A stretch of DNA of 64,000 bases from the NCBI RefSeq assembly GCF_032118995.1, contig NC_092651.1, positions 15,935,349-15,999,348 of the forward strand, in the 5' to 3' direction. Made by a program: the position numbers and the translations under genes. Within the stretch, counting starts at the first letter, position 1. Each line of letters starts with the position of its first letter. Below the pieces are notes generated by a model that saw nothing but the letters and a program-made list of their open reading frames with translations, did no database searches and had not been told where the DNA came from. Positions 3,076-63,460 of this stretch are shown here, in pieces. This stretch comes from Asterias amurensis. Its lineage: Eukaryota > Echinodermata > Asteroidea > Forcipulatida > Asteriidae.

Positions 3076-4287
3076 ATGAAGACCATGGATCGAGGGTGTT
3101 GTTGCATACAGCTGCTTTTCCTGTGTATTTGGCTTGGTTTATTTCCAACCTTTTGCATCAGTGTGAATAGATTGACTGTTGAGGTACAATTATTATCACC
3201 AACTGGTGATGTAGTGGAGGATGACACAGTGCGATTACAATGTAATGCTACTGGTATGCAGTTTGGTTATGAACTGGAGTGGTGGGCATATTACAGCGAT
3301 AGTAGATCACAAATAACAGGAAATGACGAGTGCATCGTTTCAAGTTGTAGTCTTGAAACAACATACACTTCAAGCCAATCAAAGATTGAAGTCCTCACGA
3401 TTAGAATCATCAGTAAAACCACTGTGTATTATCAGTGTAGTGTACATAGCCTGGTAGACAGCGGCATCATAGCTGCAGATGGTGTGTTCTTATGGGTGCA
3501 CTACTTTCCATCACTCTCTTGCTATCCAAAAGGTCCTTTTACTGTACAAGAAGGAGAGCAACAATATATGAGGTGTTACACTCAGAAAGGTAAACCTGAA
3601 GTTAACATGGATATTGTATCTCTTGGTGAGAGTTACACTTGGCAACAGTGGAACTACCCAGACGTGTATATAAGACTCGGTGTTAGAGCTACTGATAACG
3701 GCTCTTCATATGACTGTAGGATGACCTCCAGTGGATCAAGGTTCTCTGGTATGGAACGAACTTGTACCATTGGTCCAATGACTGTGGTTCCTATGACAAC
3801 ACTATCATTCACAACAACCCAACCAACAACAGAGCATCCTGATGCATCTATTAATAGTACAGCAGCATCACAACAACCAACGTCTTTGGAAATTGCAACA
3901 GCTTCTGAAGAAGGCGCTGATGGGGCCCCCTCATCCATATCTGCCCTCCCTTGGATTGCCGCATTCCTGGTCACTCTTCTGCTGCTTGTTATCTTGGTCA
4001 TCATAAACATCATCTTCATTGTCAAGCATCTGCAAAGATCTAATAGCAAGGAGACTGTTCAAACCAACACAGTGAAGACCGGCAGTGCTGAGGAACAGTT
4101 TAAAGGTGACAAGGTACAGTTTAAATGTGACAAAGCATTTTACAAGGTCCCGACATCCAAAAAGACTTTACAAGATCAAGACTGTAGACAAAAAGTGAAA
4201 AACAGTTGTAAAATATCAGAAGATGTCTCGGTCTATGAAGTGGTTACAAAGTTACAGAGACCTGTTTATCAGAATGTAAAGTTTTGA
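3076..4287 (+). CDS. Ig-like type I membrane receptor with tyrosine-motif tail (paralogue 1)
   Basis: Predicted single-pass receptor of 403 residues, in one exon. I chose the ATG at 3076 because it starts a clear signal peptide (MKTMDRGCC, then a hydrophobic run to FPTFCIS); the frame is open upstream to 2950 without hydrophobic character. Domain 1 (about residues 30-145) is V-like: VRLQC, LEWWAY, an extra C...SSC pair, then TTVYYQC. Domain 2 (about 147-240) has SLSCYP, YMRC, YTWQQW and DNGSSYDC. A Thr/Ser-rich stalk with one repeat unit follows, then a transmembrane helix (ALPWIAAFLVTLLLLVILV) and a basic stop-transfer. The tail has SVYEVV, which fits the ITIM pattern S/I/V/L-x-Y-x-x-V/L/I, plus AFYKVP and PVYQNV (YxN). 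Immune-type inhibitory or adaptor signalling is inferred from architecture; the ligand is unknown. A close paralogue lies 1.7 kb downstream. Confidence 0.85.
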   Translation: MKTMDRGCCCIQLLFLCIWLGLFPTFCISVNRLTVEVQLLSPTGDVVEDDTVRLQCNATGMQFGYELEWWAYYSDSRSQITGNDECIVSSCSLETTYTSSQSKIEVLTIRIISKTTVYYQCSVHSLVDSGIIAADGVFLWVHYFPSLSCYPKGPFTVQEGEQQYMRCYTQKGKPEVNMDIVSLGESYTWQQWNYPDVYIRLGVRATDNGSSYDCRMTSSGSRFSGMERTCTIGPMTVVPMTTLSFTTTQPTTEHPDASINSTAASQQPTSLEIATASEEGADGAPSSISALPWIAAFLVTLLLLVILVIINIIFIVKHLQRSNSKETVQTNTVKTGSAEEQFKGDKVQFKCDKAFYKVPTSKKTLQDQDCRQKVKNSCKISEDVSVYEVVTKLQRPVYQNVKF

Positions 4288-4565
4288 AATGAAATACAGG
4301 ATTGAAGGTATCACGGTTTCAAAGGGGATTTAATATCGATTTAACAACGTCACCCAAAGTAGGTACCATATCTAAGCGTTACCTAATATCATGTTTGTTC
4401 ACCGGTGTATCTTTTTTAAATATCGATGGTATGAATTTGAAGTTGTCTTGTTAAAAATCACTAACAATATTTATTTCCATTGGCGAAACAAATTTTGTAC
4501 AGTAATTTGAACATTGAGGTTTCTGGACAAGAATCTGATTTCATCAAGTACCAAGATTGATCTCT

Positions 4566-4905
4566 AAAGCACAGTGCATACTTCATGCGAATGCGATACA
4601 AATGTTGATATCACATATTCGCAACGAATAATTCGAAGCATAGGATTCGAACTGCCTCTAGCTACCGGGCAATCTCGGTAGTCTAGTCAGTAAGACACTG
4701 CTCTAGAATTGCAAGGGTTGTGGGTTCGAATCCCACCCAAGTAATATGCCTGTGATATTTTTTCACAGGAACTAACCAAAATTAATAACTTGTAGCAGTT
4801 GAACTGTGCTCAACTTTTGCAAAACTTTCGCTGTGAAAACAGAATTGTGACGTCAAATTCACGTCAAATTCGCATCACATTTACAGGAAGTAGGAGCCGG
4901 GCTTT
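4566..4905. mobile_element. Inverted-repeat element, family D, split by a SINE
   Basis: The ends (AAAGCACAGTGCATACTTC on the left, ACAGGAAGTAGGAGCCGGGC on the right) match those of the element at 31851-32012. A tRNA-like SINE sits in the middle (about 4655-4790). Paralogue 2 lacks the whole insertion at the corresponding place (near 7920-7950), so it arrived after the gene duplication. Confidence 0.65.
4655..4790 (+). mobile_element. tRNA-derived SINE
   Basis: It has a pol III A-box-like segment (TAGTCTAGTCAGTAAGAC) and a B box (GGTTCGAATCCC), followed by CACCCAAGTAATATGCCTG. A second copy at 44535-44640 shares the same sequence up to that point. The anticodon arm is not intact, so it is not a working tRNA gene. 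Confidence 0.7.
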
Positions 4906-5124
4906 AGTCATCCAATGATCCTATCTTAATTGTTGAGCAAAGTGTGATGTCATGATATAGAAAACTCATCTTAAGATCAACCATATAGCACTTAATGAAA
5001 TCAGGCAATGTTTTATAGTCTTGATCTCACACTGCTGTAGGTATTACTATTCCACTGATCTCAAAACCCAAACCGGAGAAATTATATTTTTCTAACAATA
5101 TTTGTTAGCTTGATCATTATCAGT

Positions 5125-5447
5125 TTAAAGGCATTGGACACAATTGGTAATTGTCAAGTATTTTCACTTTGTGTATCCCAACTCATGCAAAAAATAACAA
5201 ACCTGTGAAAATTTTGGCTCAATAGGTTGTTGAATTTGCAAAGAATAGTGAAAGCAAAAACGAAAGGCTTCAGCTGAAGTCCTTTATTGTTTGAGTGTGC
5301 AAAATTACCTCTTTTTTTAAACTACATTACTTCAGAGTGAACCATTTCTAAAAATGTTTATCCACAGCTCTCCATTGCTTGTTACCAAGTATGTATTTTT
5401 GCTGACAATTATTTTGAGTAATTACCAATAGTGTCCAGTGCCTTTAA
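5125..5447. mobile_element. TTAA-flanked inverted-repeat element, family A
   Basis: It runs from TTTAAAGGCATTGGACACAA to AGTGTCCAGTGCCTTTAA, with inverted termini and TTAA at both edges. The matching site in duplication copy 2 (near 8190-8205) is empty and reads ATCACTTTTATAACAAAG, which defines the insertion endpoints directly. Confidence 0.85.
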
Positions 5448-6001
5448 TAACAAAAAGATTAATTGGACATTTTTGGCAAACAGAATTGGTTATTCTGTTT
5501 TGAATCAAGAGCTAGGTCATGTGCATTGTCATATAAGTTTCGTGACAATTAACCAGACTGTGTTTTTTTTTGAAGAAGTTTGACTTGTTATCAAGTGAAT
5601 TAATTTCAAATGCTTCCTCATACAGCAACACTTGGTGCACTTTATCAAGTTTTTTTTTATGTTTGCACAATTTGAAAACAATCAAAGTTCAGATAACTCC
5701 AATATACTTTTTTTTTTACAAGAAAAAGAGGAACTCTTCCTGGGTTTATTAAGTTATCAAAATGTTGTTTATTGATATGGATCACAATAATAACTATAAA
5801 TCGTGCCAATAGATAGTTATTTGCACCGAAGAAAGTGTTTGGCGCACTTTGGAATCTGACATAAATGCCATCAAAAAGCTGGACCCATCACTTTTCTTCA
5901 GAACGAGTTCATTTTACAACTCTACAAAGATCGTTCCCAACTCAAGCCACAGAGTGCTATCAGCTTCAAGCCTGGGGTCTTGCTTCCCTATCTACAACAC
6001 T

Positions 6002-7645
6002 ATGAAGACCATGGATAGAGGGTGTTGTTCCATACAGCTACTATTCCTGTGTATTTGGCTTGGTTTATTTCCAACCTTTTGCATCAGTGTGAATGGATTA
6101 ACTGGTGATGTAGTGGAGGGTGACACTGTGAGATTACAATGTAATACTACTGATATGCAGTTTGGTTATGAAGTGCAGTGGTGGGCATATTACAGCGATA
6201 GTAGAACACAAATAACAAGAAATGAAGAGTGCATCATTTCAAGTTGTAGTCTCGATACAACATTCACTTCAAGCCGATCAAAGATTGAAGTCCTCACGAT
6301 TAGAAACATCGGTAAAACCACTGTGTATTATCAGTGTAGTGTGCATAGCCAGATTGACAATGGCAGTTTAGCTGCAGATGGTATGTTCTTATGGGTGCAC
6401 TACTTTCCATCACTCTCTTGCTATCCAAGAGGTCCTTTTACTGTACAAGAAGGGAAGGGGCGATATATGAGTTGTTCCTCTGAGATTGGTAAACCAAATG
6501 TAAATGTGCATATTGTATCTAGTGGTGAGAGTTACACTTGGTACAAGAGTAGTAACCATTACATGACTATATGGCTATATGTTAGAGCTACTGATAATGG
6601 CTCTTCATTTGACTGCAGTATGAACTCCAGTGCATCCAGGTTCTCTGGTATGGGACGGAATTGCACCATTGGTCCAATGACTGTGGTTCCTATGACAACA
6701 CCATCAATCACAACAACCCAACCAACAACGGACCATCTTGATGCATCTATTAGTACAGCAGCATCACCACCACACACAGCATCTTGGGAAAGTACAACAG
6801 CTTCTGAAGAAGATGCTGATGGGGGTCCCTCATCAATATCTGCCCTCCTAATGACCACACCACCAAGCACAACAACCCAACAAACAACTGACCATCTTGA
6901 TGCATCTATTAGTACAGCAGCATCACCACCACACACAGCATCTTGGGAAAGTACAACAGCTTCTGAAGAAGATGCTGATGGGGGCCCCTCATCAATATCT
7001 GCCCTCCTAATGACCACACCATCCAGCACAACAACCCGACCAACAACTGAGCATCTTGATGCATCTATTAGTACAGCAGCATCACAACACACAGCGTCTT
7101 GGAAAAGTACAACGGCTTCTGAAGAAGACGCTGATGCCTCCTCATCCATATCTACCCTCCTAATGACCACACCATCCAGCACGACAACCCGACCAACAAC
7201 TGAGCCTCTTGATGTATTTATTAGTACAGCAGCATCACAGCACACAGCGTCTTGGAAAAGTACCACAGCTTCTGAAGAAGACGCTGATGGGGGCCCCTCA
7301 TCAATATCTACCCTCCCTGTAATTGTCGCATTCTCGGTCATTCTTCTCATTTTCTTTGTCTCGGTCATCATAAACATCATCTTCATTGTCAAATATCAAA
7401 GGTCTAAGAGCAAGGAAACTGTTCTAACCAACGCAGTGAAGACTAACAATGTTGAGTTACAGTTTGAAGGTGACAGGGCAATTTACAATATCCCAACATC
7501 CAAAACGACTTTACAAGATCAAGACTGTAGACAAAACGTGAAAAACGCCAGTAAAAGATCCGAGGAAGATGTCTCCAGTACCTATGAAGCGGTAGATGAT
7601 TTACAGAGCAAAAAGAACCCCATGTATCAGAATGTAAGATACTAA
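6002..7645 (+). CDS. Ig-like type I membrane receptor with expanded mucin-like stalk (paralogue 2)
   Basis: Predicted single-exon receptor of 547 residues from the ATG at 6002, which begins the same signal peptide as paralogue 1 (MKTMDRGCCS...). Domain 1 starts nine residues shorter (VNGLTGDVVEGDTVRLQC) because of a 27-bp deletion, then keeps QWWAYY and TTVYYQC. Domain 2 has SLSCYP, YMSCSS, YTWYK and DNGSSFDC. The stalk holds four tandem units of 51-53 residues (starts at 6692, 6851, 7010 and 7163), each with MTTP, TTT, DASIS, TAAS and TASEEDAD; they are Ser/Thr-rich and likely O-glycosylated. The helix is LPVIVAFSVILLIFFVSVI. The tail has STYEAV (ITIM-like), AIYNIP and PMYQNV (YxN). Codon phase is kept through all repeats, which argues for a functional gene. 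The signalling role is inference. Confidence 0.85.
   Translation: MKTMDRGCCSIQLLFLCIWLGLFPTFCISVNGLTGDVVEGDTVRLQCNTTDMQFGYEVQWWAYYSDSRTQITRNEECIISSCSLDTTFTSSRSKIEVLTIRNIGKTTVYYQCSVHSQIDNGSLAADGMFLWVHYFPSLSCYPRGPFTVQEGKGRYMSCSSEIGKPNVNVHIVSSGESYTWYKSSNHYMTIWLYVRATDNGSSFDCSMNSSASRFSGMGRNCTIGPMTVVPMTTPSITTTQPTTDHLDASISTAASPPHTASWESTTASEEDADGGPSSISALLMTTPPSTTTQQTTDHLDASISTAASPPHTASWESTTASEEDADGGPSSISALLMTTPSSTTTRPTTEHLDASISTAASQHTASWKSTTASEEDADASSSISTLLMTTPSSTTTRPTTEPLDVFISTAASQHTASWKSTTASEEDADGGPSSISTLPVIVAFSVILLIFFVSVIINIIFIVKYQRSKSKETVLTNAVKTNNVELQFEGDRAIYNIPTSKTTLQDQDCRQNVKNASKRSEEDVSSTYEAVDDLQSKKNPMYQNVRY
6692..7312 (+). repeat. Coding minisatellite (stalk VNTR), four units
   Basis: Four in-frame units of 159, 159, 153 and about 150 bp encode the Ser/Thr-rich stalk of paralogue 2. 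Units 1 and 2 are nearly identical (ASPPHTASWES), as are units 3 and 4 (ASQHTASWKS), suggesting duplication in two steps. Paralogue 1 has only one equivalent unit (3796-3948). Confidence 0.9.
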
Positions 7646-33079: not shown

Positions 33080-33694
<615 letters not shown>

Positions 33695-41501: not shown

Positions 41502-53735
<12,234 letters not shown>

Positions 53736-61079: not shown

Positions 61080-63460
61080 GAATTCAGTCTATTGAATATT
61101 GTGTTTTGTATTTTATTTATTGATAAACATTACTTGTGGCACTGAATTGCTTTGGACAGGAAGAAGTAATGGTAACATAAGATATTAACCAACATTTTTT
61201 CCTAAACAAAAACAATGCAAATAAACACACACAATAATCTGGACTTTGCAAAACTTCTTTCCCCTGCATTAACAGATACTCTACATTAACAGTTGCAGAA
61301 AATCCCAGCAGTTATTACAAATAATTAAAAGGGGGCTAGAAGGTTCAGTTCTGTGAACCACCCATTTTCCAATAGATAGGGTCCTTATCAAAATGGGGGG
61401 GGGGGGGGGGTTGTAAAAAGCCACTGTATTTGATACTCTTCAAAGTGCATTTTTTTGTTGAAATTAATAAATGTTTGATGACGTCACATTTCAAATAATA
61501 TATGGTATATATACTTTTGTACAGAGCAGTTTTAGTGCCTTCCTGAATTTATATTATTTTCAGTCAAAACGGCATTGAATTTTTACCTTTATGGCAGGCT
61601 CAAAAGATTTCTTTGTAATGCACAGACCCATTTGATTTTGTTATATCTGATGATGTCATGTTTCAAATTTCACTATGAAAGAGAATCAAATAAAATGTGA
61701 TTTTTCATTTCATTTTCATGAGGTAAGAGAACTTACCGTGGACTCTATCTGTTGGAAAACGTGTTGGAAAATGAGTGCATCACAAAATATAATTTTGACC
61801 TTGGCGTCCCTCTTTCTCTCTACGCAGATTTCACTCCTCAGGTATATTCATTTGGTACGAGGAATCTCTAACACAGCTTCTTTAGGAAATCCTACCCCCA
61901 TCAATTTGAGAATGTTGATCTTTGGCTTTGAGTTCTGTGTTAAATAAAAATGAGCCATGAAATAAAATCTGTTAAGTCATACAGCACAGGTATAGATTTA
62001 AATGTTCTAAAGACCTTGCTTGAAACTTGTTTTGAAACTAAAGCAATAACAATGTGAAAATCGCCTTACAAATGAACATAAAGTAGATAGTGAAGTTGTG
62101 TAATGTAACAGCACTGTGTTCCTTTGTGCGATATTGATATAGTACATTTGTGTTAAAAATTGTTTAATTGAATGAGTAACAGGTACATTGTAGGTATTTT
62201 TTTTTAGATGATCCCCATCAAGGGAACTCGGCAAACTCACACAAAGGGATATAAACACTAAGCTTGCAACAGCCAATCTCTCTCATACAGACACTTGTCT
62301 AACGTCTATGATTATGAGTTGCACAAATCAAGAAATTGTGATCCAGTAACTAGACAATAATACTTATTTTACTCATTGTGAATTGAATCTCTGAATACAT
62401 TAAAAGCCTGTTTAACTGATTAAAAGCTTTCATCTTATTCAAAAGGCGAGAAAGTGTATCTACTTAAATGATCAACAATTAATTATAAAATAGTCTCTGA
62501 ACCGTGATTCTATTTTTTTTGCTCATCTTCGTCCGAAAATATTAAACGCTCACTGTACTCGGGCATGCAACTTTTCCTGGATCAGCTAATTTCCTTGTTT
62601 GTTAATTTCAGTTTTACCATTCAAAATTGAAAAAAAAATATACAAAATCATTGAATTTTTGTGATATCCTATTTTTGGGTGAAGCTACAGTTGCATGCCT
62701 GTGTACTTACAAAGCTTGTGAAAAGAGTCTAGTATGATAGCTATCAGACAATCAGAAACTTAACCTATGCCTTTTCAAATTGCGCACAAAACAGTGTTTA
62801 GTTATATTCATAGAAGAATCCAGAAGACGATCAGAGCATACTGATTGAAACGTCGAGTTAATCCAACGGTTCTTTTCAGAACCACCACAACTCATTTAGA
62901 GATTGTTATTACATGGTGTTACCGCAAACTCTTCTATATTATATTCATACAGGCAAATGACTTCAGTGTGTATTTGATTAACATAACTTATAAAATAAAG
63001 ATCTATTTATTTCATCCCTGAAACTAAATTTTTAGTGTACAGTACTCGGCAAACAAACACACTTTTAAAAACAATATATACTCTTTATATACAGGATTTC
63101 TCTATAATTTATAGATCACACACTTGATTATTGAAATCCTTACCAGCCTTAGAAAAACTTTTAGTTTCCAACTATCAGAAAACTTTCCAACTGCTTGATC
63201 GAAAACGATCATTAGTAGTTATTCAGTTGTAAATCAAACGCAATTCATTAAAATAAACTGCATTAGTGGTTTGTGGGTCAGGAGATTGAATAATAAGTGC
63301 TGCAAAGAAAACAGATTTTCTTTATCTCAAAGAATATTTTTTCGCCTTAAGAAAACAAGGTTGTATTGAAAAAAAGAAAGAAAAAAAGGTGGTATTGAAA
63401 CTGGGTTTCATCTGATTATTCATTTAACCCTTTTCTCAAGGCACAGTAGTTGAATACACA
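61080..63460. other. Intergenic between PGAP2 and DYNC2H1
   Basis: No supported gene. It contains a G homopolymer (about 61396-61412). At 62825-62885 the phrase GATCAGAGCATACTGATTGA followed by AACGTCGAGTT is palindromic and resembles the 23.2-23.5 kb block. Confidence 0.4.

Follow-up and report, generated by a model that had tools for sequence, protein, structure and literature searches.

A 64,000-nucleotide stretch of the Asterias amurensis genome (assembly GCF_032118995.1, contig NC_092651.1, positions 15,935,349 to 15,999,348 of the forward strand; hereafter the window, with positions counted from its first letter) carries a tandem pair of receptor genes of the immunoglobulin (Ig) type, referred to here as gene 1 and gene 2. 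As claimed in the original prediction, which was made from the DNA letters, each encodes a signal peptide, two Ig domains, a stalk, one helix and a short cytoplasmic tail in a single open exon, and both are confirmed as genuine single open frames. The term intronless is used throughout for the coding region, and a 5' untranslated exon cannot be judged from DNA. The pair is laid out as follows.

3076..4287, plus strand: gene 1, one-exon Ig receptor, 403 amino acids plus stop (open frame, translation)
3076..3165, plus strand: gene 1 signal peptide, residues 1-30 (hydrophobic N-terminus)
3166..3507, plus strand: gene 1 Ig domain 1, V/I-type, Cys-Trp-Cys (alignment A1, AlphaFold2)
3508..3789, plus strand: gene 1 Ig domain 2, four cysteines (alignment A1, AlphaFold2)
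3790..3966, plus strand: gene 1 Ser/Thr-rich stalk (translation)
3967..4023, plus strand: gene 1 transmembrane helix core, residues 298-316, without charged residue (hydropathy)
4141..4152, plus strand: gene 1 tail, YxxP motif YKVP (motif in translation)
4228..4245, plus strand: gene 1 tail, SVYEVV, inhibitory-motif pattern (motif match)
4267..4278, plus strand: gene 1 tail, YQNV, a YxN motif (motif match)
6002..7645, plus strand: gene 2, one-exon Ig receptor, 547 amino acids plus stop (open frame, translation)
6002..6091, plus strand: gene 2 signal peptide (translation, hydrophobicity)
6092..6406, plus strand: gene 2 Ig domain 1 (alignment)
6407..6688, plus strand: gene 2 Ig domain 2 (alignment)
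6688..7316, plus strand: gene 2 stalk, Ser/Thr-rich 159-bp (53-codon) repeat in four copies (Tandem Repeats Finder, 91% matches)
7334..7390, plus strand: gene 2 transmembrane helix core, residues 445-463 (hydropathy)
7484..7495, plus strand: gene 2 tail, YxxP motif YNIP (motif in translation)
7577..7594, plus strand: gene 2 tail, STYEAV, inhibitory-motif pattern (motif match)
7625..7636, plus strand: gene 2 tail, YQNV, a YxN motif (motif match)

The two proteins share 73% amino acid identity over 385 aligned residues. The genes are tandem duplicates, with DNA identity of 86% in the upstream flank (365 aligned bases) and 70% in the downstream one (395). When the pair is aligned as DNA, all 7 coding gaps are multiples of three, compared with 1 of 15 flanking gaps, which shows that the reading frame has been kept. 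Gene 1 has a further in-frame ATG upstream at 2950; since the gene 2 counterpart is out of frame, the signal-peptide ATG at 3076 is the better start. The tails, 87 amino acids long in gene 1 and 84 in gene 2, each carry one YxxP motif, S-x-Y-E-x-V and YQNV; the latter two had already been picked out in the original prediction, and YxxP is additional. Between both receptor genes lies a transfer RNA (tRNA)-like match (41.3 bits, 4672-4744), possibly a tRNA-derived repeat.

Because Pfam is weak on the window proteins, their Ig assignment rests on relatives found elsewhere in the genome together with a structural model of gene 1. Neither window protein gave an Ig match above the Pfam cut-off (gene 1 reached Ig_3 at an expectation value, E, of 0.039, and no Ig family was listed for gene 2), and the gene 1 ectodomain matched no Ig family at E ≤ 0.01. 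Across the family, in contrast, the claim of Ig-like domains fared well: 46 of 48 ectodomains matched Ig_3 at E ≤ 0.01, and 3 of 4 full-length relatives passed the Pfam Ig cut-off. The AlphaFold2 model of the gene 1 ectodomain consists of two all-strand domains (predicted local distance difference test score 88.4) and aligns with two-Ig structures. In an alignment of the 48 ectodomains (A1), cysteines C36, C101, C129 and C210 are invariant, C147 and C194 are nearly so, and W49 is present in at least 90%. Two other matches were set aside: gene 2 matched SIT too weakly for homology to be accepted (E 0.0063; 17.4 bits, where the cut-off is 27.6), and the top Foldseek rows, mostly antibody fragments with template modeling scores of 0.3-0.5, were not taken as kinship.

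A large clustered family with two classes of tail

The window's own genome (491.5 Mb in 23 contigs, given below as C plus a number) was searched with only the best candidates scored, so that the family count is a lower bound. Gene 1 as query returned at least 105 rows at E ≤ 0.001, among them those of the pair itself, and queries from more distant members returned at least 150, 131, 70 and 149 rows in overlapping sets. From the 150- and 131-row searches 160 rows were kept, which reduce to 155 places (141 core, 14 weaker) with duplicates dropped by eye, and the two later searches add 18 places by reading, for a total of at least 173. The further paralogues for which the original prediction proposed a genome-wide search are thus abundant, and most are single open frames in tandem clusters. 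The 141 core frames include 82 of 380-589 amino acids and 35 of at least 590 (117 of 141 at or above 380), together with 15 of 300-379 and 9 shorter. DNA was read for part of the places and yielded 63 frames of the family; in 55 of these the start, ectodomain and helix are continuous in a single frame. Gene 1 is 33-36% identical to full-length-type members on C18. No description of such an echinoderm family was present among the literature matches listed.

Some places stand out. On C13, several rows at 18868-18885 kb reappear with the same scores about 162 kb further on, at 19030-19047 kb, and the members at 18879150 and 19041180 match exactly in both ectodomain and tail, which suggests a recent segmental duplication or a duplication in the assembly. 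The 314-amino-acid frame of a distant member on C1 (L075, 20991700-20992850) closes with a hydrophobic stretch and has no cytoplasmic tail, as expected of a glycosylphosphatidylinositol-anchored or decoy form. At C6:2324967 and C7:17832626, the family matches lie inside longer single open frames of 1242 and 924 amino acids, respectively.

The 55 tails sort into 37 of class B (35 distinct), 10 of class C and 8 others, with the B and C tails unrelated in sequence. Their tyrosine motifs are described here by conventional names: immunoreceptor tyrosine-based inhibitory motif (ITIM) and switch motif (ITSM), and Crk- and Grb2-type for docking motifs that suit adaptors with Src homology 2 (SH2) domains. 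Class B tails are short, with motifs in the order YMEL, YMEP, YYQP, YARP, TxYEAV and YQN; YxxP is found in all 35 distinct tails (110 occurrences, against a shuffled mean of 24.0 and a maximum of 38), TxYxx[VI] in 31, and YQN, YHN or YQD near the end in 29. Repeated YxxP is also the mark of p130Cas-type docking regions, and a single B tail can hold as many as 12; here the motif sits on a transmembrane receptor, and no homology is claimed. The tails so enlarged, by YYQP-YARP repeats, belong to L011, L021 and L020 (C18:4.21 Mb, C17:12.35 Mb). In L064 (C13:19026260) and L015 (C18:3949433), the tails leave the usual frame, share the end IPTTNQLK and have lost most tyrosines.

Class C tails are 322-364 amino acids long apart from one of 226. 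Eight of the 10 end in two ITIM/ITSM-like Y[AS]xx motifs spaced 23-28 residues apart (for example, ITYAEL to TLYASI, IVYADL to VLYSSV, and TTYAEL to PIYATV). The pattern [ILVST]xYxx[ILV] occurs twice near the end in 7 of 10 C tails, against a shuffled share of 0.0002, although shuffles ignore relatedness and so overstate the enrichment in both classes. The strict form, [ILVS]xYxx[ILV], is present, as a pattern only, in 9 of the 10, and in all 10 if T is allowed at -2.

Activating partners with charged helices, which the original prediction envisaged, did not emerge. In the subset of the family that was read, with adaptors not searched, a charged helix core is absent from 49 of 55 predicted helices, and the remaining 6, all in class C members, have a Lys near the cytoplasmic end. 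An activating member with a charged helix was not recognized among the 55 full-length members, and the partners carry a different tail instead.

The window tails follow the B-like motif order (YxxP, [S/T]xYExV, YQN), and the gene 2 tail scores 14.0 bits with a profile of other B tails, where 400 shuffled sequences reached 11.0 at most. With the profile backing gene 2 only, kinship to class B is weakly supported for the window tails; the pair is read as a divergent, reduced B-like branch, and its own role is less certain than the family's.

Ectodomains, gene order and tail homogenization

Members of the two classes can have closely similar ectodomains. A C gene and a B gene on C13 are 81% identical in Ig1 and 88% in Ig2, with 0.12 and 0.10 synonymous substitutions per synonymous site (dS), respectively, and their helices and tails align no better than background. 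Eight C-B pairs were compared, drawn from C13, C13 versus C10, C18 3.94-3.99 Mb, C18 3.97 versus 4.19 Mb, and C1, and dS fell at 0.05-0.25 in 14 of 16 domain comparisons; the two outliers are mosaics, on C1 (Ig1 0.13, Ig2 0.47) and at C18 3.95 Mb (Ig1 0.12, Ig2 0.30). Six of the eight pairs lie within one cluster or subcluster pair (C13, C18 3.94-3.99 Mb, C1) or join C18 3.97 to 4.19 Mb, and one joins C13 to C10. A tree of the ectodomains, holding 10 C and 36 B rows, requires a minimum of 10 switches between tail classes, as against a mean of 9.24 with shuffled labels, so the ectodomain does not predict the tail.

The two classes also share clusters. Searches with C tails found 24 genes in C13, C10, C1 and C18 4.42-4.46 Mb and 6 in C18 3.94-3.99 Mb, and B-tail rows are present in all five of these clusters. 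All nine C genes on C13 lie on the plus strand, compared with 8 of 32 B tails, the other 24 being on the minus strand (Fisher p 6.9e-5). A head-to-head arrangement with a B gene is seen for five of nine C genes on C13 and three of four on C10; judging from tail positions, about 1.4-3.3 kb separate the two start codons.

A different history is suggested for the B tails. Between C18 and C7, C13 or C10, ectodomain dS is 1.67-2.64 and B-tail dS only 0.19-0.46, in 18 of 18 pairs among nine genes, and sliding identity delimits a tail block of about 250 bp, from just after the helix to near the stop, that is approximately 80-98% identical while positions outside it are near background. Judged by rates, B tails appear to have been homogenized between chromosomes, or swapped, with the ectodomains saturated. 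Constraint at the nucleotide level is an unlikely cause of this identity because the tails on C1, at C18:9.76 Mb and on C4 have diverged. Among 19 distinct short genes of C13 and C10, the ratio of nonsynonymous to synonymous rates (dN/dS) is highest in the signal-peptide stretch (1.16) and lowest in the helix (0.34), with Ig1 at 0.87, the stalk at 0.86, Ig2 at 0.76 and the tail at 0.70. Rapid change is evident; positive selection is not shown.

Elsewhere in the window, a piece of a homologue of UBE3A (E6-AP ubiquitin ligase) lies on the minus strand at 50284-51591 (PDB match, E 7e-105), accompanied at 52322-52927, also minus, by what we take to be a second piece. An AAT repeat of 202 copies with 100% matches, which could be a polymorphic locus, occupies 33089-33694, and a histone 3' untranslated region stem-loop match (Rfam RF00032, 35.6 bits) lies at 62863-62909.

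A probable paired-receptor system and the alternatives

Because like ectodomains stand on two kinds of tail, one of them ITIM/ITSM-like, in clusters that include mosaic ectodomains, the family is best read as a paired-receptor system, and on balance we lean toward the view that the window genes are two short-tailed members of a large, clustered, intronless two-Ig family organized in this way. At the family level, like ectodomains are joined to different tails, class C carries the ITIM as a pattern, and the genes are clustered. The paired-receptor-like Ig family of the original prediction thus gains at least 173 places and two alternative tails, but a class C partner of the window pair itself was not found on its contig, C4, with the queries used.

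We infer the working of such a system, including its expression and immune role, as follows. The ectodomains would bind ligands, and class B tails, phosphorylated at YxxP, TxYxx[VI] and YxN, would dock SH2 adaptors of the Crk and Grb2 types, giving a positive, phagocytic or adhesive signal run through the receptor's own docking tail. The C-terminal ITIM/ITSM-like pair of class C would recruit an SHP-type phosphatase and so inhibit. With like ectodomains kept on the B and C genes of a cluster, a single ligand could then be read in both senses, and gene conversion or tail swapping would keep B tails alike across chromosomes as the ectodomains diverge. A bolder extension, which we advance tentatively as falling somewhat short of even chances, is that an invertebrate has independently built a paired system on the scale of KIR or CEACAM: intronless, with more than 170 loci and B and C cassettes that share ectodomains, some head-to-head, in which ectopic gene conversion keeps one tail uniform from chromosome to chromosome as the ectodomains diverge, so that the germ line reshuffles ligand specificity and signal sign.

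Several observations weigh against the paired-receptor interpretation. For the window pair, for which no C partner was found on C4, the B-tail profile does not list the gene 1 tail, and dN/dS is 0.78, not significantly below 1 (p 0.10); the check on selection proposed earlier is therefore compatible with relaxation, and the value of 0.08 for the signal peptide comes from 4 differences only. In class C, six of the seven strict tandem tails come from one C18 cluster, leaving a C13 member as the independent case and C1 as a looser third, and all of the motif enrichments are overstated as described above. The case for moving tails is qualified as well, an ectodomain dS near 2 being a rough figure. 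C7 compared with C13 or C10 shows no tail excess (ectodomain dS 0.49-0.53, tail 0.37-0.43), so that one transfer before the C7/C13/C10 radiation could suffice. Ectodomain data reject a tail-like grouping (p 0.0159), but in topology tests the 78-codon tail is compatible with the ectodomain grouping (approximately unbiased p 0.387 and 0.376); tree incongruence was therefore dropped as proof of tail swapping, which rests on the rates. Positive selection on Ig1 was likewise dropped: replacement hot sites are concentrated on the GFCC'C'' side (16 of 58 versus 5 of 53 elsewhere, Fisher p 0.016), but they were picked by replacement count, and nonsynonymous to synonymous changes per site stand at 0.91 on both sides, with synonymous changes also up at the hot side.

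Comparison with known systems places the family among paired receptors in some features and apart from them in others. The Xenopus CEACAM paired receptors were argued from non-random orientation, 80-93% shared variable-type Ig domains and gene conversion, and their first domain has replacement changes in its CC'C''FG region (PMC5112662). Clusters, like ectodomains on opposite tails, an ITIM/ITSM end, non-random orientation and probable gene conversion all recall vertebrate CEACAM. Unlike CEACAM, the present family is intronless, has YxxP/YxN in its second tail rather than an immunoreceptor tyrosine-based activation motif (ITAM), and has a B tail apparently homogenized between chromosomes, with positive selection and orthology not shown. 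Ig ectodomains common to members with different signaling, ITIM tails and clusters are shared with KIR, LILR and PILR (PMC3533184), whose activating members, however, have a charged transmembrane residue and an ITAM adaptor; none of this kind was seen among the 55 helices. FcoR of Botryllus, an invertebrate chordate, likewise comprises Ig-superfamily receptors with ITIM or hemITAM tails, and the Hydractinia Alr genes are cnidarian candidate allorecognition genes with such motifs (PMC12065747). FcoR differs in being spliced and in combining a V-type Ig, a sushi and two C2-type Ig domains, whereas the present genes have two Ig domains in a single exon, and no sushi domain was listed in Pfam scans of window proteins, ectodomains or full-length relatives.

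It is also conceivable, although we regard it as unlikely, that the window pair are inhibitory ITIM receptors whose S-x-Y-E-x-V recruits SHP2, which would be compatible with a paired family. SVYEVV and STYEAV do match [ILVS]xYxx[ILV], and the B kinship of the gene 1 tail lacks profile support, yet these motifs sit in B order, where -2 is usually T, beside YxxP and YQN. The label ITIM-like from the original prediction thus holds as a pattern that both genes fit, but the clearest tandem ITIM-type ends sit on class C.

Somewhat less probable still is a role in adhesion or cell recognition: the genes would form an expanded branch of the Kirrel type (irre cell recognition module) that serves tissue patterning, cell fusion or self-recognition rather than immunity, with the tyrosine tails as cytoskeletal docking sites. 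A Kirrel-type D1-D2 structure came first in both structural lists, but weakly and within about 1 Z of other Ig chains, a similarity of fold only. KirrelL has more Ig domains. This echinoderm gene encodes an intronless Ig-domain transmembrane protein with a skeletogenic role, and the term ITIM does not occur in the KirrelL paper (PMC8903837); the present family resembles it in its intronless coding region and single open frames. A single conserved adhesion gene would present a different pattern from this one, with its two alternative tails, mosaic ectodomains, ITIM/ITSM-like ends and total of at least 173 places.

We consider it improbable that the tail is a degenerate ITAM, in which Y-E-x-V-x(7-10)-Y-Q-N-V would bind a Syk/Shark-type kinase and activate. 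Where a B tail carries both YExx and YQN, the spacing between them is indeed 10 in 28 of 30 cases (it is 7 in gene 1), and the distant member L034 (C18:15876142-15877353; tail class 'other'), whose divergent branch has 11 other places with at least 62% identity at C18 15.8 Mb, carries YMEL-x9-YTEL, close to an ITAM. The strict pattern YxxL/I-x(6-12)-YxxL/I, with L/I at +3, occurs in none of the 35 distinct B tails, however, and in none of the 10 C tails. Finally, that most copies are non-functional retrogenes spread by tandem duplication and then left to drift would accord with the pair's dN/dS, with a copy that is split at C4:15.77 Mb and with the 24 core frames, out of 141, that fall below 380 amino acids, but is made very improbable by the predominance of longer frames, the frame-keeping gaps of the pair, the four invariant cysteines and the low helix dN/dS on C13 and C10.

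Shared ectodomains on opposite tails are a hallmark of vertebrate natural killer and myeloid immunity. If the paired-receptor interpretation is correct, this logic arose or persisted in an invertebrate, in intronless genes whose tails move between chromosomes, and the family would show cleanly how gene conversion can uncouple the binding of ligands from the sign of the signal. It would also offer comparative immunology a candidate repertoire of more than 170 loci and make the origin of inhibitory-receptor balance testable outside chordates.

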